In this document: piece by piece, positions 30,828 to 45,448 of the stretch
How the letters are laid out: each line of letters starts with the position of its first letter
Position numbering within the stretch: the first letter of the stretch is position 1
From: Loktanella sp. IMCC34160
GTDB taxonomy: Bacteria > Pseudomonadota > Alphaproteobacteria > Rhodobacterales > Rhodobacteraceae
Reading direction: 5' to 3'
Assembly (NCBI RefSeq): GCF_004145845.1
Contig: NZ_SELP01000001.1
Coordinates: 1-64,000, forward strand
DNA length: 64,000 nt
Program-made: the position numbers and the translations under genes
Notes under the pieces: generated by a model
The model's input: only the letters and a program-made list of their open reading frames with translations
Told to the model about the DNA's origin: nothing
Database searches by the model: none

Positions 30828-31437
30828 AGCGATCAAGCTTGACGGCAAAGCCGCCGGCGCTGTCGATCTCTCGGACGAGATCTTCGGCCTCGAGCCCCGC
30901 GCCGACATCCTGCACCGCGTCGTTCGCTGGCAGCGGAACAAGGCCATGGCCGGGACTCACTCGGTCCTGACCAAGTCGGAAGTCAGCTACTCGACCAAGA
31001 AGATCTACCGCCAGAAGGGCACCGGTGGCGCACGTCACGGTTCCAAGAAGGCCCCGATCTTCCGTCACGGTGGCGTCTACAAGGGCCCGACCCCGCGGTC
31101 GCACGCCCACGACCTGACCAAGAAGTTCCGCAAGCTGGGCCTGCGCCATGCGCTGTCGGCCAAGCTGAAGGCGGGCGAGCTGGTCATCCTGGACGTGGCT
31201 GACGTGAAAGAAGCCAAGACCGGCGCGCTGGCCAAGCAGGTCAACGCTCTGGGCTGGAAGCGTGCACTCGTCATCGACGGGGCCGCGGTGAACGAAAACT
31301 TCGCCAAGGCTGCGCGCAACATCGCCAACCTGGACGTGCTCCCCTCGATGGGTGCCAACGTCTACGACATCCTCCGCAGTGACACGCTCGTGCTCACCAA
31401 GGCTGGTGTCGAAGCTCTGGAGGCTCGTCTGAAATGA
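30817..31437 (+). CDS. rplD: 50S ribosomal protein L4
   Basis: A 206-residue L4 with the exit-tunnel extension around [20 protein letters not shown]. In E. coli L4 represses the S10 operon by attenuation and translational control; no such leader was recognised ahead of rpsJ. It starts inside the end of rplC behind GGAGG and ends overlapping rplW (ATGA). Confidence 0.97.
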
Positions 31438-31730
31438 GCGCGAAAGCAGAACACTACGACGTGATCCGCAAGCCGATCATCACCGAAAAAGCGACCATGG
31501 CGTCGGAAAACGGTGCGATCGTCTTCGAAGTGGCCATGGACGCCAACAAGCCGCAGATCAAGGAAGCTGTCGAGGCTCTCTTTGGTGTGAAGGTGAAGGC
31601 CGTCAACACCACCATCACCAAGGGCAAGGTCAAGCGGTTCCGGGGCTCCCTCGGCAAGCGCGCTGACGTCAAGAAAGCCTATGTGACGCTGGCCGAAGGC
31701 AACACCATCGACGTGTCGACCGGCCTCTAA
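31434..31730 (+). CDS. rplW: 50S ribosomal protein L23
   Basis: A 98-residue L23 at the exit-tunnel mouth, the docking point for trigger factor and SRP. Family segments are [15 protein letters not shown] near the N-terminus and [18 protein letters not shown]. It is translationally coupled to rplD. Unlike most bacteria, rplB does not follow directly: a terminator and two unrelated genes intervene. Confidence 0.97.
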
Positions 31731-31754
31731 GGCCCGCACATCGGGAACGCATTG

Positions 31755-31785
31755 AACCCCGGCTGCGACAGCGGCCGGGGTTTTT
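31755..31785 (+). terminator. Intrinsic terminator after rplW
   Basis: AACCCCGGC (31755-31763) pairs with GCCGGGGTT (31774-31782), continuing into a T-run. It splits the S10 operon between L23 and L2. Confidence 0.88.
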
Positions 31786-31927
31786 CTTTGCGCGCGCCAT
31801 GGACCCGCAAGCGCACCAACTTGCCTTGGTCCTGCCGCGATATCGCCGTTTTTGGCTGGCGTAATCGGGGGTTGTAGTGCCCCGTGTGACCCAGAATGGG
31901 TCGGGCCAGATCAAAAGGTGGTCGAAC

Positions 31928-32362
31928 ATGGAATATGGTCGCATTGAACCGCTCTCCGGCGTTTCGGGCAAGGAAGAGACGGCTGTCACGCTGAAGTCGA
32001 TCAAAGAGCTGCTGGACGAGGAACTGGCACGGACCGGCGACAGGGCCGCCGTGCAAGAGGTGATCAAGCAGCAGGCCGCGACAGCCGAGCGGAAACAGGC
32101 CCCGGCCGTTGCCCCGCAGCCGGCCCCGAAACCTGCGCAGCCGCAGGCCCAGAAACCCTCCGCGTCGCATGTCCTGCCGTTGCAGACGCCGCCGCACATG
32201 CGCGCGCCCGCGAAACCGGTGGCCCCGGCCCGGCCCGTCACAACCGCACGGCCCGACACCCCGGCGACCAAACTTCAGTCCGCCGTCCCGCTGGCCCCGG
32301 CCCAGGACACCGCCCCCAGCCCCAAATCCGGCTCACTCCTGAAACGGCTTCTGGGCCGCTAG
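31928..32362 (+). CDS. Hypothetical Pro/Ala-rich protein inside the S10 operon
   Basis: A 144-residue protein not recognised. Residues 1-60 are mixed and charged, with a predicted helix (VTLKSIKELLDEELARTG). Residues 60-130 are low-complexity Ala/Pro/Gln/Lys, probably disordered, and the C-terminus is a short basic helix (SGSLLKRLLGR). The ATG at 31928 has AAGGTGG at good spacing; an in-frame extension upstream is possible. Codon use is like the host's, so it is probably an old resident rather than a recent arrival. It could be a nucleic-acid- or protein-tethering factor, but nothing proves this. Confidence 0.6.
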   Translation: MEYGRIEPLSGVSGKEETAVTLKSIKELLDEELARTGDRAAVQEVIKQQAATAERKQAPAVAPQPAPKPAQPQAQKPSASHVLPLQTPPHMRAPAKPVAPARPVTTARPDTPATKLQSAVPLAPAQDTAPSPKSGSLLKRLLGR

Positions 32363-32507: not shown

Positions 32508-33656
32508 ATGAGAGGTCAGGTAGAATTCAACCGACCTATGAAATACAAGGTTGTCCGCAAGCTCGGAGAAGGAGCTTGCGGCGAGACGATACAGTTGCGC
32601 GACGAGTCGATGGCCGCAGATTTTGTAGCCAAGAAATATTCACCGCTCATCAGTGAAGATGACGACAAGGAACTATTTGGCGAGTTGTTCGAGCGGTTTA
32701 GAGATGAGGCACGAATACTGTTCAAACTCAACCACCCGAACGTCGTGCGGGTTTTCAACTTCTACGACTATAGCGAGAAGAAGACCGCCTACATATTGAT
32801 GGAATATGTTGAAGGGTCAGAGATATTGGCGTTTTTGGCGGAGAGACCGTCTGACGCTGATCGTGTTTTTGAAGGAATTGTCGAAGGCTTCATGCATCTT
32901 CAGCGTCAAGGCGTTCTTCATAGGGATATCCGTCCAGCGAACATTCTGGTTCAATCAGACGGCTCGCCCAAGATCATCGACTTTGGTTTTGGAAAAAGCT
33001 CGATCACTAGTGAAAGGTTGGCTGAAAGGAAGAGTATTTCGCTAAACTGGTGGTGCGAAACTCCCCCGGAGTTTGGAGTAGGTATCTACGATTTCCAAAC
33101 GGAAGTATATTTTGTGGGGAAACTATTTGAGCACGCATTGTCTGACGGAAAGCTCACCAATTTCCGATACAATAGCTTGGTCCAAAAAATGTGTGAGCTT
33201 GACCGTGAGCTTCGGATCGAAAGCTTCCAAGAACTGCAATCCGAAGTAAGCCGAGGAAAGTTTCAGGAGTTGTCATTTTCCAAGGAGGAGGTCTCCGTTT
33301 ATCGGTGCTTTGCAGACGGCCTTTCATCGGTGATTTCCACTGTGGGTTCAGATGCTCGATTTGAGCGCGATGCTGACAAAATTACCGCTGATCTTAGCAA
33401 TCTGTATCGGAATTCAATGTTAGAAGAGTTCCTTCCTGCGCCGAACCAACTTGTTAAGATCTTCGTCAAGGGGGAATTTCGATATTGGACCAATCGGTCT
33501 ATAGAGGTGCGGGCTATCCAGGACTTCCTTGAGTTCATCCGCAGTTTGCCCACTGAAAAGCGGGTGGTCGTAGTCGAGAATATCATTGCAAGGCTTGAAG
33601 CGTGTGAACGTACCAAGCCAAGTGAATACGACTTGGACGACGAAATCCCTTTCTAA
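32508..33656 (+). CDS. Hanks-type serine/threonine protein kinase
   Basis: A 382-residue soluble kinase. The glycine-rich loop is LGEGACGETI (19-28), the ATP lysine lies in VAKKY (42-43), the helix C glutamate in RDEARIL (67), the catalytic loop is HRDIRPANIL (138-147) and the magnesium loop DFGFGK (158-163); TPPEFG replaces the APE motif. Activity is therefore expected. Residues about 260-382 form an unrecognised C-terminal domain with no membrane helix or PASTA repeat. The gene is clearly AT-richer than its neighbours and uses rare codons such as ATA and TTA, indicating horizontal gain between rplW and rplB. Terminators stand on both sides. Confidence 0.88.
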   Translation: MRGQVEFNRPMKYKVVRKLGEGACGETIQLRDESMAADFVAKKYSPLISEDDDKELFGELFERFRDEARILFKLNHPNVVRVFNFYDYSEKKTAYILMEYVEGSEILAFLAERPSDADRVFEGIVEGFMHLQRQGVLHRDIRPANILVQSDGSPKIIDFGFGKSSITSERLAERKSISLNWWCETPPEFGVGIYDFQTEVYFVGKLFEHALSDGKLTNFRYNSLVQKMCELDRELRIESFQELQSEVSRGKFQELSFSKEEVSVYRCFADGLSSVISTVGSDARFERDADKITADLSNLYRNSMLEEFLPAPNQLVKIFVKGEFRYWTNRSIEVRAIQDFLEFIRSLPTEKRVVVVENIIARLEACERTKPSEYDLDDEIPF

Positions 33657-33699: not shown

Positions 33700-33735
33700 C
33701 ACAGCCCCGGATTCGTCCGGGGCCGTGTGTTTTTG
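33700..33735 (+). terminator. Intrinsic terminator between the kinase gene and rplB
   Basis: CCCCGGA (33705-33711) and TCCGGGG (33716-33722) close a TTCG tetraloop, with outer CACAG/CTGTG-like pairing, then TTTTT. It ends kinase transcripts and may also form the 5' structure of the rplB mRNA. Confidence 0.88.
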
Positions 33736-33805
33736 ACTATGGGGACCTTCGGGGCCCTTCACCTGCCGGGCCTTACCGCCCGCAAAGCAACGGAAGACAG
33801 AAAAC

Positions 33806-34645
33806 ATGGCACTCAAGTCGTATAAACCGACGACGCCTGGCCAGCGTGGGCTGGTGCTGATCGACCGTTCGGAGCTTTGGAAAGGTCGTCCGGTCAAGTC
33901 CCTCACCGAGGGTCTGACCAAAAAGGGCGGTCGGAACAACACCGGACGGATCACGGCACGTCGTCGTGGTGGTGGCGCAAAGCGTCTCTATCGCATCGTG
34001 GACTTCAAGCGGAACAAGTTCGACATCTCCGCGACCGTCGTTCGCATCGAATATGACCCGAACCGGACCGCCTTCATCGCCCTCGTCCAGTACGAAGACG
34101 GCGAACAGGCCTACATCCTTGCCCCGCAGCGTCTGGCTGTTGGCGACAAGGTCATCGCTTCGACCAAGGCTGACATCAAGCCGGGCAACGCGATGCCCTT
34201 CTCGGGGATGCCGATCGGGACGATCGTTCACAACATCGAAATGAAGCCCGGCAAAGGCGGCCAGATCGCCCGTGCTGCAGGCACCTACGCCCAGTTCGTT
34301 GGTCGTGACGGGGGCTATGCCCAGATCCGTCTGTCCTCGGGCGAACTGCGTCTGGTGCGTCAGGAATGCATGGCCACCGTCGGTGCCGTGTCCAACCCCG
34401 ACAACTCGAACCAGAACCTCGGCAAGGCCGGTCGCGTCCGCCACTACGGCAAGCGTCCGTCGGTCCGCGGTGTCGCGATGAACCCGATCGACCACCCGCA
34501 CGGTGGTGGTGAAGGCCGCACCTCGGGTGGCCGGACCCCGGTTACCCCCTGGGGCAAGGACACGAAGGGTCGTCGGACCCGCAACAAGAACAAGGCGTCG
34601 CAGAAGCTCATCCTTCGCTCGCGTCACGCCAAGAAAGGGCGCTAA
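33806..34645 (+). CDS. rplB: 50S ribosomal protein L2
   Basis: A 279-residue L2 close to the peptidyl-transferase centre. [18 protein letters not shown] starts it, [16 protein letters not shown] is represented as [19 protein letters not shown], and the histidine-bearing [20 protein letters not shown] is conserved. Normally it directly follows rplW; here 2 kb separates them. Confidence 0.98.
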
Positions 34646-41389: not shown

Positions 41390-41953
41390 ATGGCTCGTGA
41401 ACCGCAACAGCGTGGGAATCGTCGCGAACGCGAAGAAGCCCCCGAATTCGCCGATCGCCTCGTCGCGATCAACCGTGTGTCCAAGACCGTGAAAGGTGGT
41501 AAGCGCTTTGGCTTCGCCGCTCTCGTCGTCGTGGGCGACCAGAAAGGCCGCGTCGGCTTTGGTAAGGGCAAGGCCAAGGAGGTCCCCGAGGCCATCCGTA
41601 AAGCCACCGAACAAGCCAAGCGCCAGATGATCCGCGTGCCGCTGCGCGAAGGCCGCACGCTGCACCACGACATCGAAGGCCGTCACGGCGCCGGTAAGGT
41701 CATCATGCGCACCGCGCCGACCGGGACCGGGATCATCGCCGGTGGTCCGATGCGTGCCGTGTTCGAAATGCTGGGTGTTCAGGACGTCGTCGCCAAGTCG
41801 AACGGCTCGCAGAACCCCTACAACATGATCCGCGCCACCCTCGACGGCCTGCAGAAGTCGCAGTCGCCGCGCAACGTCGCTCAGCGTCGTGGCAAGAAGG
41901 TCGCTGACATCCTCGGCTCCAAGGGCGATGCCCCTGCCGAAGCCGAAGCGTAA
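41390..41953 (+). CDS. rpsE: 30S ribosomal protein S5
   Basis: A 187-residue S5 involved in decoding fidelity. [39 protein letters not shown] and the glycine-rich [15 protein letters not shown] are diagnostic. GAGAGGAAG lies upstream. rpmD follows after 12 bp. Confidence 0.98.
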
Positions 41954-41965
41954 GGAGACGGACCC

Positions 41966-42154
41966 ATGGCAAAAACCATCGTCGTCAAGCAGATCGGCTC
42001 GCCGATCCGCCGCCCCGCCAAACAGCGTGCCACGCTGGTTGGCCTTGGCCTGAACAAGATGCACAAGACCCGCGAGCTGGAAGACACCCCGTCGATCCGC
42101 GGCATGGTCGAAAGCATCCCGCACCTCGTCGAGATCATCGAAGAGCGCGGCTAA
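41966..42154 (+). CDS. rpmD: 50S ribosomal protein L30
   Basis: A 62-residue L30. [19 protein letters not shown] and [20 protein letters not shown] are diagnostic. It ends this part of the spc operon; rplO normally follows directly but is about 2.8 kb away. Confidence 0.97.
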
Positions 42155-42181
42155 GTCATCGGTTGCACAGCAACCATGCAG

Positions 42182-42212
42182 CGCCCCGGCCAGAAATGGT
42201 CGGGGCGTTTCT
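42182..42212 (+). terminator. Intrinsic terminator after rpmD
   Basis: CGCCCCGGCCA pairs with TGGTCGGGGCG (one G-T pair) around GAAA, then TTTCTTGTTT. A small GGTTGC/GCAACC hairpin precedes it. Confidence 0.85.
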
Positions 42213-42249
42213 TGTTTCTGAACTCAGGGTTTTCTGATTTCCTAGTTCA

Positions 42250-43167
42250 ATGAACGCGATTCTTTGGTTTCTTGTTATCGTTGGCTTATGCGCACTGGTC
42301 GTTATTGGTGCGTTGCTGCTGATCCCGAAGCCATCCGCAGACGGTGCAGTCAAAGCCACCGCTCGCAAGAGCGCCAGTTTGCTTTCATTTATCTTTGCGA
42401 CCCTGGCTATTACCGAGATCTGGTTGCTCGGGTGGATCTTCCTCCCGAAAATCTACGGAAATCCGGAGAATGTCGGCGTTGCGGGCGATATGTTTGGCGT
42501 CCTCACGTCTCTATTCTCTGGTTTCGCGTTCGCGGGCCTAATCTCGACACTGCTGATGCAGAGACAAGAGCTCGAATATCAACGACAAGAATTGCGGGAC
42601 ACACGTGAAGAGTTTTCAAGACAGCGTTTTGAGAGTTCATTGTTCTCAATAGTTGGCCTTTGGACACAGCATATTGATGGTCTGGTCCTAAAAAACGACT
42701 CAGATATCACTCTACATGGGAGGGCTGTCCTAGACTACTATGCGAGCGAGTTGCCTAACCAGGTGCAGATTATCTTGGATTCAGATGAAGAGGGCCCTTT
42801 CTGGGAGTTGGTCCCGATCCCGATATTTGATGATTATGTTGATCAGGTTCTCGAATACGAAGAGTACTACGAAAGGGAGCTAGAGACAGATCTCGGCCCC
42901 TACTTCAGGCTGCTTTATCATGCTATTCGCCATATTGAACGTTCCAACTTGGACGAGAGCGACAAGCAAAAGTACTCCAAGATTGTTCGTGCACACCTAA
43001 GCTCGCCCGAATTGGATCTGCTTTTTTTCAATTGCTTCTCGAAATGGGGATATGGCTTTAGAGATTGGATATGTGACTATAGACTTCTCAAGCATATTCG
43101 GCCCAAAACGAAGCAAACCAACCCCTTGTTGGTTGAGGACCTGGGTCCTGATGCATTTTCCGATTGA
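42250..43167 (+). CDS. PutAbiC-type putative phage abortive infection membrane protein
   Basis: A 305-residue protein with three membrane helices (about 4-24, 45-66 and 83-103), the last reading FGVLTSLFSGFAFAGLISTL, then a coiled coil (MQRQELEYQRQELRDTREEF), then a soluble domain with FESSLFSIVGLW, LGPYFRLLYHAIRHIERS, IVRAHLSSPELDLLFFNCFS and DYRLLKHI. This order matches the PutAbiC (PF16872) family of putative abortive-infection proteins (recognised from memory). Base composition is AT-rich, with ATA and TTA codons, unlike the flanking ribosomal genes, so it was probably acquired. The ATG follows a TTCCTAGTTCA without a strong ribosome-binding site. Confidence 0.8.
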   Translation: MNAILWFLVIVGLCALVVIGALLLIPKPSADGAVKATARKSASLLSFIFATLAITEIWLLGWIFLPKIYGNPENVGVAGDMFGVLTSLFSGFAFAGLISTLLMQRQELEYQRQELRDTREEFSRQRFESSLFSIVGLWTQHIDGLVLKNDSDITLHGRAVLDYYASELPNQVQIILDSDEEGPFWELVPIPIFDDYVDQVLEYEEYYERELETDLGPYFRLLYHAIRHIERSNLDESDKQKYSKIVRAHLSSPELDLLFFNCFSKWGYGFRDWICDYRLLKHIRPKTKQTNPLLVEDLGPDAFSD

Positions 43168-43276
43168 GCAACCTGCTTCCCATGCGTTCTCTGCATTCCG
43201 GGGCTTCGGGATTGGCGGTGGTGCGGCGCGGACGGTGGGCGTAGGCAGCGGTCAACCCCAGACAAAAGGCACCCCA

Positions 43277-43384
43277 ATGACCTTCCTCCGCACCCTCGCC
43301 GCCAAGATCAAAACCACCTGGGCCAACGGCCCCGTCCCCTGCTGGACTGAATACCTGCACCAGACCCAAGGCGCCCGTCAGTAG
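43277..43384 (+). CDS. Possible 35-residue small protein
   Basis: The short frame reads MTFLRTLAAKIKTTWANG then PVPCWTEYLHQTQGARQ: an amphipathic N-terminal helix and a Trp/Pro/Cys-containing tail. AAAAGGC lies 7 nt before the ATG, and host-like third-position GC is evident. No family is recognised and the length gives little statistical support. Confidence 0.35.
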   Translation: MTFLRTLAAKIKTTWANGPVPCWTEYLHQTQGARQ

Positions 43385-43469
43385 GGATCACACCCCACCA
43401 GCGCAAAGGTGATTGGGAACCGAACCCGGTTGTGGCAATGCTGGGGGCACCCCAACGAAAGCCCCGCCG

Positions 43470-44327
43470 ATGCGTCTGTTCCTGCTGACCAGCCTCACCA
43501 TGATCGCCTTCGCGGCGAATTCCCTGTTGAACAGGGCAGCCCTGTCAGGCGGACACATCGGCGCCTCTGAATTCGCCTCGGTCCGGGTTCTCAGCGGCGC
43601 GGTCATGCTTTGGCTGCTCATGACGCTCCAGTCCCGGACGCGACCGGTCCTGCTCCGCCCGGATTGGCGCGGTATCGCGGGGCTGGTGGCCTATCTGGTC
43701 GGGTTTTCCTACGCCTACCTACATGTCGACGCCGGTCTTGGCGCGCTGGTGCTGTTCGCAGGCGTCCAGCTGACCATGTTTGCCGGGGCCTTGGCCGAAG
43801 GGGAAAGCCCGCCGGCGGCCCGTTGGCTTGGCATGGCCGTGTCGCTGGCGGGGCTGACCTATCTGGTCTGGCCGACCGAAACCGTCGCCCTGCCGCCCCT
43901 TTCCATCGGGTTGATGGTGATCGCCTCGGTCGGATGGGGCGTCTATTCGCTGGCCGGGCGGCGGGTGTCGGACCCGCTGGCCGCCACGACCACCAATTTC
44001 TTCTATGCCAGCCCCGTGGTGGTTCTGGCCGGTCTGGCGCTGCATCCAAGCCCGGCGCTGTCGGCACCCGGGATCTGGCTGGGCGTCCTCTCCGGCGCCA
44101 TCACCTCGGGGCTTGGCTATGCGCTCTGGTATCGGGTTCTGCCGTCGCTTGGGGCCACCAAAGGCGCAATCGCGCAGCTGTCCGCCCCGGTTCTCGCGCT
44201 CATCGGCGGCGCGCTGTTCCTGTCGGAACCGCTGACAACGCGGGCCGTGCTCGCGTCGGTCTTGGTTCTGGGCGGTATCGCATTGGGTGTCGTGCAGCTC
44301 ACCACAAGGACGAAACCGGGTCGCTAG
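43470..44327 (+). CDS. DMT superfamily (EamA) transporter
   Basis: A 285-residue, roughly ten-helix membrane protein with two EamA repeats: FAANSLLNRAAL and ASEFASVRVLSGAVMLW in repeat 1, and SGAITSGLGYALWYRVLPSL with ALIGGALFLSEPLTTRAV in repeat 2. It probably exports a small metabolite. The ATG at 43470 starts MRLFLLTSL; the upstream extension is hydrophilic and unlikely. Its codon use is host-like, so it is part of the cargo between rpmD and rplO but not obviously foreign. Confidence 0.88.
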   Translation: MRLFLLTSLTMIAFAANSLLNRAALSGGHIGASEFASVRVLSGAVMLWLLMTLQSRTRPVLLRPDWRGIAGLVAYLVGFSYAYLHVDAGLGALVLFAGVQLTMFAGALAEGESPPAARWLGMAVSLAGLTYLVWPTETVALPPLSIGLMVIASVGWGVYSLAGRRVSDPLAATTTNFFYASPVVVLAGLALHPSPALSAPGIWLGVLSGAITSGLGYALWYRVLPSLGATKGAIAQLSAPVLALIGGALFLSEPLTTRAVLASVLVLGGIALGVVQLTTRTKPGR

Positions 44328-44398
44328 AAGCCCGCGTTGGTATCTTGCGGTGCACGCGCCGGTGTCTAACATGGCTTCACCGCAATCGAGGGGCGAAC

Positions 44399-44818
44399 AT
44401 GATCACAAGGTTGGTTACGAGTATTGTCTTTGCCGTCGGCTTTGCCGGGGCGACGTCGGCCTATGACCTCAGACAGATGGTCGACCTGATCGAAAGGACG
44501 CCCTGGGGCTGGACCACCGTTGAAAACGTCTGCGTCGAACAGGTCCGCTATTTCACGTTCAACGACGAAATGGACATCATGTTCAGCGACATTGCCGAAC
44601 TGGATGAACCGCTGGTCTACCGGGTTCACGAATACAGCTCATATTCCATCACAATGGAAATCGACGGTGAAACCAGAATGACGGACGAAGGCGTCCCGGT
44701 GGTCTGGGAACTCCGATTTGGGGGACCCGACGGTATTTGTTGGCGGGCAACGCATTGGAGCTTCTTTGACTGCTCTCCGTTTCTGGTCCGGTGCCCGGAG
44801 TTGTCGCCGACTTCCTGA
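44399..44818 (+). CDS. Secreted protein of unknown function
   Basis: A 139-residue protein with a Sec signal peptide (MITRLVTSIVFAVGFAGATSAY, cleavage expected after ATSA) and a soluble domain of about 118 residues with five cysteines that could form disulfides (VCVEQV, GICWRATHW, FFDCSPFLVRCPE). GAGGGGCG precedes the ATG. No family is recognised. It is the last cargo gene before the rplO promoter, which begins just after its stop. Confidence 0.65.
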   Translation: MITRLVTSIVFAVGFAGATSAYDLRQMVDLIERTPWGWTTVENVCVEQVRYFTFNDEMDIMFSDIAELDEPLVYRVHEYSSYSITMEIDGETRMTDEGVPVVWELRFGGPDGICWRATHWSFFDCSPFLVRCPELSPTS

Positions 44819-44853
44819 ACCCGGCAGACCCGGCGCGACAGCACACAGAGGGC

Positions 44854-44882
44854 TTGAACGTCCCGGCCCCAACCCGTATACG
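44854..44882 (+). promoter_or_regulatory. Promoter restarting the operon at rplO
   Basis: TTGAAC (44854-44859), a 17-bp spacer and TATACG (44877-44882), 96 bp before the rplO ATG. The -10 and spacing equal those of the rpsL and rpmC promoters. Confidence 0.65.
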
Positions 44883-44977
44883 CCCCCGGTGGCCTCGTGA
44901 TGGGGCCCGACTCAATTGGAAAAGCCGTGTTTGCCCGTTCCGTCGCTGGGGGGCAGTTCCGGCAAAGGAGAAGCGAC

Positions 44978-45448
44978 ATGAAACTTCACGAACTTCGTGA
45001 CAACGAAGGCGCAACCAAGAAGCGTATGCGCGTTGGCCGCGGCCCGGGCTCTGGCAAGGGTAAAATGGGTGGCCGTGGTATCAAGGGTCAGAAATCCCGC
45101 TCGGGTGTGGCGATCAAGGGCTACGAAGGTGGCCAGATGCCGCTCTACCAGCGTCTGCCCAAGCGTGGCTTCAACAAGCCGAACCGCAAGAAATTCGCCG
45201 TCGTCAACCTGGGCCTGATCCAGAAGTTCATCGACGACAAGAAGCTCGACGCCGCCAACATCAACGAGGACACCCTCGTGGAATCCGGTCTGATCCGTCG
45301 CAAGCTGGACGGTATCCGCGTTCTGGCCAAGGGCGAACTGACCGCCAAGGCGACCATCACCGTGACCGGTGCCTCCAAGGGTGCTGTCGAAGCGGTGGAG
45401 AAGGCCGGCGGCTCGCTGACGGTCACTTCCGCGGTGGCGGCCGAGTAA
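44978..45448 (+). CDS. rplO: 50S ribosomal protein L15
   Basis: A 156-residue L15. [32 protein letters not shown] and [17 protein letters not shown] are diagnostic. AAAGGAGAAG lies before the ATG at 44978; a longer in-frame opening belongs to the leader. secY follows after 105 bp. Confidence 0.97.

Follow-up and report, generated by a model that had tools for sequence, protein, structure and literature searches.

How does a gene resembling phage abortive-infection genes come to stand between two genes for ribosomal proteins (r-proteins)? The question is raised by the first 64,000 nucleotides (nt) of contig NZ_SELP01000001.1 of Loktanella sp. IMCC34160 (assembly GCF_004145845.1), referred to here as the window. 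The gene orders rpmD-rplO and rplW-rplB are generally known to be highly conserved. An earlier note, made from the sequence of this DNA, had pointed to 2.8 kb between rpmD and rplO headed by a gene for a PutAbiC-like protein, and had seen in it a defence gene embedded in the spc operon, where it could be protected from loss or could sense disturbed ribosomal expression. The interval was recovered (2826 nt from the last to the first matched codon). We consider it fairly probable that this cassette is cargo in an operon joint and that the PutAbiC-like gene is a likely membrane-anchored anti-phage gene which landed there. The gene itself adds a member to a known family, and its place is unusual but explained; the result of interest is the leader-headed joint, open to cargo, together with the candidate leader RNA of rplO.

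rpmD and rplO were located in 147 genomes, and their spacing was counted in 68 contiguous Rhodobacteraceae and in 53 Alphaproteobacteria of other families (at either joint studied here, genomes without one of both genes were excluded). The unbroken order that the note had taken as the norm was found in all 53 genomes of the other families, with spacings of 7-130 nt. It does not describe the Rhodobacteraceae, in which the spacing ranged from 45 to 5143 nt and reached at least 400 nt in 43 of the 68 genomes and at least 1000 nt in 30. A unique insertion into an otherwise intact spc operon was therefore rejected. Another 11 Rhodobacteraceae genomes have rpmD and rplO on separate contigs or opposite strands: G034, G043 and G088 (G numbers denote genomes, L numbers loci) carry both on the same contig in opposite orientation, G023, G042 and G071 are split well within long contigs, and the other splits are possibly assembly breaks. 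In the genomes named here the rplO unit appears displaced from rpmD as if it were an autonomous module. Omitted from the count were G032, with an 18-residue rpmD piece (E 1.5e-4) and rplO on another contig, and the second gene pair of G096 (contig C658, about 31 nt apart). The rplO matches with an internal stop codon in G059, G072, G076 and G118 possibly reflect read-through at the gene end only.

Both borders of the joint carry recurrent signals. The terminator after rpmD that the note had recognised has counterparts across the family, as a perfect-stem terminator was found just 3' of rpmD in 37 of the 43 gaps of at least 400 nt and in 45 of the 63 gaps of at least 100 nt, compared with 30 of 300 control windows inside long gaps. 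The rplO promoter is likewise upheld by its conservation. The form (C)TTG(A/C)-N17-TATACG recurs upstream of rplO in Rhodobacteraceae, and TATA[CTG] was present 70-150 nt 5' of rplO in 42 of 52 gaps of at least 200 nt vs none of the 16 shorter ones (Fisher 3.6e-9). A generic promoter scan of 41900-45200 returned no site, which says little because the conserved rplO promoter also went undetected. With the joint broken family-wide and a terminator, a promoter and a leader at its borders, the PutAbiC-like gene lies, as judged from sequence, between two transcription units, and the view that it is embedded in the spc operon as a special arrangement is not supported. The upstream unit would end in the terminator, and the unit rplO-secY-adk-rpsM-rpsK-rpoA-rplQ (its genes after rplO identified by inspecting translations) would have its own promoter and a pseudoknot leader.

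In the candidate leader, GCCG and a variable hairpin arm precede a loop; the complementary arm and CGGC come after it, followed by the ribosome-binding site and a complement to the loop. The loop holds TCGCTTC, GTCGC or GACGC, and the matching GAAGCGA, GCGAC or GCGTC stands directly before the ATG. In the window, helix P1 is formed by 44924-44927/44960-44963 and helix P2 by 44931-44936/44951-44956; in the putative pseudoknot 44942-44947 pairs with 44972-44977, beside the AGGAG at 44966-44970. This layout was parsed in 68 of 74 rplO upstream regions of Rhodobacteraceae. A covariance model built from 28 of the parsed regions matched 68 of the 74, once each, all at rplO and consistently upstream of the r-protein operon. 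It also matched 263 of a larger set of 295 Rhodobacteraceae genomes (genomic place established for the 74 loci only). Among 240 genomes of the class it gave 11 matches, which were strong in three Rhodobacteraceae and weak in the eight others (7e-5 to 6e-3); the three weak matches that were placed (G127, G102, G105) are not on the rplO contig.

With the pseudoknot included, 91.4% of the alignment cells were paired, compared with 81.7% in shuffled and 32-49% in slid controls, and 107 cells showed changes on both sides (33.8 shuffled, 8-25 slid). The pseudoknot paired in 85%. In an alignment-free test, the complementarity of each loop to its own start region reached 6.34 vs 5.54 in 1000 shuffles (standard deviation (sd) 0.09, maximum 5.86). 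GACGC loops were accompanied by GCGTC in 7 of 8 cases and GTCGC loops by GCGAC in 23 of 26 and by GCGTC in none of the 26; 35 of the 69 loops belong to neither class. By these comparisons the rplO element appears to be a conserved structure with covariation, strong in P2 and moderate in the pseudoknot, with a nearly invariant P1.

Several observations speak against the leader so drawn. The single-sequence free-energy fold of the window leader does not give the consensus (z 0.73). The alignment was fitted to the model and includes its 28 seeds, so that the pair counts lean towards the model. Pairs with changes on both sides numbered 8 vs 6.2 in shuffled alignments, and 44 of 500 shuffles were as high. 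P1 hardly varies, and the covariation of the pseudoknot rests on few positions. Six of the 74 rplO regions lack a model match, three matches are weak (E 0.001-0.007), and 32 of the 295 Rhodobacteraceae genomes have none.

Rather than an r-protein leader, the element might be a metabolite riboswitch or simply a structure at the translation start. This is possible, and we rate it as clearly the less likely explanation. It fits the overlap with the ribosome-binding region and the unremarkable single-sequence fold. It does not fit the changes on both sides in six of six P2 pairs, the position of 68 of 68 matches in the examined loci ahead of an r-protein operon, or the presence of a listed r-protein leader at the sister joint rplW|rplB. 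Binding of an r-protein is a candidate function of the element. In the mechanism we propose, the hairpin loop would pair with bases between the ribosome-binding site and the start codon, and an r-protein of the operon, with L15 as first candidate, would most likely shut off translation via the leader. No match was found in Rfam 15 within 44917-44980 at E<=5, and a known RNA family at this place was rejected. A bacterial rplO leader is likewise absent from Table 1 of a 2020 survey of r-protein leaders (PMC7247131; its supplement on earlier leaders is outside this scope), and titles and abstract beginnings in the literature gave no recognised description of a bacterial leader heading an rplO (uL15) operon.

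A tree of the rpmD and rplO proteins (80 rows) places several short-joint genomes near its drawn base, and long joints require at least five changes on starred branches (midpoint root; 30 of 77 inner branches open). Of the 16 joints shorter than 200 nt, 12 retain a match to the leader model, which is weak in three. An order in which a short joint with leader came first and terminator and promoter followed is only consistent with the midpoint-rooted tree, and the short joints may also have been shortened secondarily.

By the same kind of comparison, the S10 operon is broken at rplW|rplB on the same plan. The spacing between rplW and rplB is 5-68 nt in all 50 genomes of other families counted, and 14-5520 nt in 70 contiguous Rhodobacteraceae, with at least 400 nt in 28 of them; seven more are split, and two rplW pieces of G022 were joined into one for this count. 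The L2 leader RF03142 stands 5' of rplB in 23 of 27 long joints examined and in the window; of the 28 joints of at least 400 nt, 26 have a terminator after rplW (no separate control). Long joints tend to co-occur: among 62 genomes, 22 have both joints long, 5 only rplW-rplB, 16 only rpmD-rplO and 19 neither (Spearman 0.52, p 1.4e-5, uncorrected for relatedness). No cargo relatives shared between the two joints were found by BLAST at E 1e-5. The L2-Alphaproteobacteria leader (RF03142; PMC7247131, Table 1) likewise heads a split-off r-protein unit, in the window directly 5' of rplB with cargo and a terminator upstream. The rplO element differs from it in sequence and by its pseudoknot. In the window the second joint holds a kinase gene whose product matches PADLOC mad6 (3.6e-33) and PD-T4-6 (1.1e-30) over the kinase domain only; this gene and the PutAbiC-like gene have the two lowest third-position GC values among 52 heuristically chosen window open reading frames (ORFs) of at least 150 amino acids (aa).

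At the second joint, inspection by eye showed a hairpin around CCCCGGATTCGTCCGGGGC in many long joints, a short distance 5' of the L2 leader or of rplB (for example loci L184-L210; about 33705-33730 in the window). Internal stop codons in the rplB matches of G090, G094, G096, G100, G104, G123, G139, G141 and G146 possibly represent read-through at the gene end only.

Table 1. Features of the rplW|rplB and rpmD|rplO joints in the window
Feature	Position	Strand	Basis
rplW (L23), last gene before the break	31434..31730	+	PF00276, 3e-34
Terminator stem after rplW	31754..31783	+	terminator scan
161-aa ORF, no family, possibly spurious	31877..32362	+	ORF call, profile search
AT-rich protein-kinase gene, PADLOC mad6/PD-T4-6 like	32508..33656	+	PADLOC, Pfam, composition
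L2-Alphaproteobacteria r-protein leader	33741..33803	+	RF03142, 58.1 bits
rplB (L2)	33806..34645	+	PF03947, PF00181
rpmD (L30), end of upstream unit	41966..42154	+	PF00327, 1.2e-18
Rho-independent terminator after rpmD, 13-bp stem 42180-42209, interrupted T tract	42180..42219	+	terminator search
PutAbiC-like gene, 305 aa, first in cassette	42250..43167	+	C-terminal PF16872 domain, 42883-43101
35-aa ORF ending ...PVPCWTEYLHQTQGARQ	43277..43384	+	recurs at the rpmD|rplO joint
EamA/DMT-type transporter gene, host-like GC 0.67	43470..44327	+	PF00892, 3.9e-20
139-aa ORF, no family above cut-off	44399..44818	+	profile searches
rplO promoter TTGAAC-N17-TATACG, conserved	44854..44882	+	comparative conservation
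Candidate rplO leader RNA	44917..44980	+	covariance model, comparative covariation
rplO (L15), head of rplO-secY-adk-rpsM-rpsK-rpoA-rplQ	44978..45448	+	PF00828, 3.9e-19

The family assignment of the first cassette gene was confirmed by the profile search. Residues 212-284 of its product match PF16872 with E 1.1e-20 and 74.3 bits, above the Pfam gathering cut-off of 22 bits (77.3 bits in the genome-wide scan of the same gene), and residues 46-285 match phrog_8999 (E 2.2e-26) over profile positions 11-245 of 270. The gene is AT-rich, as the note had observed: its GC content is 0.482 vs a mean of 0.622 (sd 0.038) in the 52 window ORFs, and its third-position GC is 0.55 vs 0.745. It is foreign in composition. 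The AlphaFold2 model (pLDDT 81.6, pTM 0.60) is almost all-helical, with helices at residues 2-23 and 36-69, a long one at 77-143 and a C-terminal part that is likewise helical. This is in line with the three membrane helices and the coiled coil that had been read from the translation, and the N-terminal helices are putative membrane helices.

Relatives of the protein are found in mobile contexts. The closest homolog found (44% identity) is encoded on a Falsirhodobacter algicola plasmid, close to an IS3 transposase gene; others come from six further plasmid records (seven in all), a Vibrio inovirus (35%) and 26 IMG/VR loci of viral contigs, two of which resemble the Vibrio inovirus. Twenty aligned members all match phrog_8999 and have in common the stretch GDxFG...LFxGxAF and the residues G76, G79, D80, F82, G83, L88, F89, G91, A93, F94, Q104 and Q111. 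Homologs were found by protein search in 6 of the 147 genomes including that of the window, the other five not at the joint. PF16872 occurs above cut-off in 10 of the 295 Rhodobacteraceae genomes, at the rpmD|rplO joint in the window genome only; the nearest other PF16872 gene to rplO or its leader lies about 43 kb away (G366).

The protein shares the putAbiC domain and a long phrog_8999 match with this family, but its gene sits in a chromosomal joint of r-protein genes. To known abortive-infection proteins the likeness is partial. An AbiP profile matches locally at residues 215-263 (2.5e-9; 49 positions, 111-159 of 223), and of the AbiC profile only positions 174-233 of 306 match (E 3.2e-4). 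Full-length membership of AbiP or AbiC was rejected on account of these partial matches. In the available part of one account (PMC10127798), lactococcal AbiP and Staphylococcus aureus PdpSau are membrane-anchored proteins linked to abortive infection, PdpSau also to a changed membrane potential. The window protein resembles them in its putative membrane anchoring and in the local AbiP match. For PdpSau that account gives a single N-terminal membrane helix and an OB-fold-like part, whereas the window protein has more N-terminal helices and an almost all-helical model.

By analogy with these proteins, the PutAbiC-like protein is most likely a membrane-anchored anti-phage or superinfection-exclusion protein. 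Its family occurs on viral contigs, plasmids and a filamentous phage, and it would most likely act in superinfection exclusion or abortive infection. Through its N-terminal helices and coiled coil the protein would be kept as an oligomer at the inner membrane, and detection of a phage component by the PF16872 part would make it damage membrane function; domain, homologs and the AbiP and PdpSau analogy suggest this course. Read-through from rpmD into the gene is possible because only 40 nt separate the terminator stem and its ATG, and we speculate that the gene is transcribed in this way. Two negative results weaken the case for defence: Foldseek gave no match of the model at E<=0.001 in BFVD or PDB, and no paper naming PF16872 or putAbiC was found in the literature searched. 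The defence role consequently rests on the family name, the mobile-element context and the local resemblance to AbiP. The best VIA Z of the model (7.9, over a helical stretch) is not meaningful, the PDB sequence search gave fusion-partner chains only (best E 0.24), and single-protein pattern searches of genome and viral contigs returned nothing useful.

The proposed picture further holds that the stretch between the two units would vary freely, with many one-off genes and a few that recur, among the latter a 35-aa micro-protein and small DUF1127-like proteins. Heuristic calling, which includes false frames, yielded 98 ORFs from 42 of the 43 long rpmD|rplO joints. For 60 of them BLAST found no relative at the same joint of another genome. 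The other 38 (33 genomes) have such relatives and form 13 clusters of 2-6 genomes, so that the cargo is not simply random, a point against the proposed picture. Pfam and PADLOC were run on 80 proteins of this joint (77 of the 98 ORFs and three window ORFs) and on 40 of the second (39 of 48 ORFs and the window kinase). At the first joint, the 25 of 52 Pfam families listed are mostly metabolic or unknown; they include cytochrome P450, the metallo-beta-lactamase fold and RraB with three members each, as well as ectoine synthase, DEAD helicase and DUF4202. One locus holds a PIN-domain protein and another a SUKH protein. The 25 of 76 PADLOC families listed matched two proteins each, which agrees with the two DEAD helicases reported by Pfam, and among these matches a defence enrichment was not seen. 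A defence island at the joint is not shown. At the second joint, a Csa3-like regulator appears besides the window kinase among the 25 of 38 PADLOC families listed. Loci L105, L107, L109, L111, L113, L115, L117 and L176-L183 are outside all analyses.

The 35-aa ORF downstream of the PutAbiC-like gene carries PVPCWTEYL and recurs at the joint in other genera. Its seven best other matches in the 147 genomes (G082, G086, G070, G064, G053, G012 and G079; E 1e-7 to 0.008) are located within the rpmD|rplO interval in six cases and, in G064, just upstream of rplO on its contig. Matches elsewhere in G025 and G005 follow, then one at the joint again in G002; the remaining matches up to E 1 (80 of the 147 genomes have one) are noise-like. 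The joint therefore has at least one small gene of its own. A further motif, which we take to be DUF1127-like, stands on the plus strand in 8 of the 68 joints, with three copies in G086. Such small ORFs were noted at L048 (G086), L049 (G038), L075 (G006), L040 (G031), L046 (G075), L047 (G039), L051 (G082) and L073 (G076). BLAST also grouped six minus-strand cargo ORFs; four of their source genomes (G031, G039, G075 and G082), and G076, carry the plus-strand motif, so that these frames are probably antisense to the DUF1127-like ORF.

Alternatively, the joint could be a neutral gap that is tolerated, and the PutAbiC-like gene could be decaying or encode a membrane protein without a role in defence; we regard this as unlikely. 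The many cargo ORFs without a same-joint relative would be expected of such a gap, and a literature test of PF16872 was not found. The reading frame, however, is intact over 305 aa with the family motifs present, and homologs on viral contigs, an inovirus and plasmids are as often seen for superinfection or defence genes. The neighbouring 35-aa ORF is conserved at the joint, and one cargo protein of the same joint in Ruegeria pomeroyi is abundant (PMC3305630, in its available part).

That a defence gene is purposely kept in the translation operon, to be protected from loss or to sense disturbed ribosomal expression, we hold to be very improbable. The short distance from the rpmD terminator stem could link the gene to the operon by read-through, and both joints of this genome hold an AT-rich, defence-like gene. 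The joint, however, is broken throughout the family, and the cargo matches listed are mostly metabolic or unknown. The comparison of relatives that the note had proposed showed no PutAbiC-like gene at this place in the 67 other contiguous Rhodobacteraceae, and the nine other PF16872 carriers among the 295 genomes have it elsewhere. Protection from loss is not supported, because the gene occurs at one of 68 joints and the rplO unit itself is displaced in several genomes.

Least probable of all is that a mobile element integrates at the joint in a site-specific manner: the gaps differ strongly in length and content, and the 40 ORFs of the second joint include one rve integrase core and one HTH_38 domain, but no repeats framing the cassette were found within 41900-45200, an integrase is absent among the 25 of 52 Pfam families listed for the first joint, and terminator and leader persist at the ends regardless of cargo.

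The variable region, its co-transcribed genes and the terminator are already known from R. pomeroyi, at the same joint as in the window. According to the available part of that account (PMC3305630), the region measures 1.8 kb and contains two novel genes behind a terminator after rpmD; reverse transcription PCR linked the two genes together and gave no product to rpmD or rplO, and one of the two proteins was abundantly translated according to proteogenomics. Among Roseobacter members the size (0.1-1.5 kb) and the sequence of the region were reported to vary. The same part of the account mentions neither a leader RNA nor a promoter, names no second joint and draws no comparison with other Alphaproteobacteria. 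The present analysis adds the contrast across the family, the promoter and the pseudoknot leader, the second joint, the micro-protein that recurs, and PutAbiC among the cargo.

On a wider view, the S10-spc-alpha cluster of Rhodobacteraceae may be in the course of being broken into autonomous modules exactly at RNA leaders, with joints open to genes; we see this proposal as evenly balanced. If it is true, the leader makes the downstream unit independent of its upstream neighbours, and the joint before it therefore becomes an open landing place. Anti-phage genes at the joints may then owe their transcription to leak-through from the cell's strongest operons, and a joint would grow residents of its own, such as the PVPCWTEYL micro-protein. 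As two conserved gene orders fall apart in one family at leader-headed points, the dismantling of operons becomes testable. For a new feedback RNA acting on ribosome synthesis, the rplO element offers a ready candidate whose helices are defined and which shows covariation; the 35-aa ORF that recurs is a defined micro-protein for testing. The joints also offer places outside integrase sites in which to look for lone anti-phage candidates such as PutAbiC and the PD-T4-6-like kinase. Apart from these elements, a Rhodo-rpoB RNA was also matched within the window.

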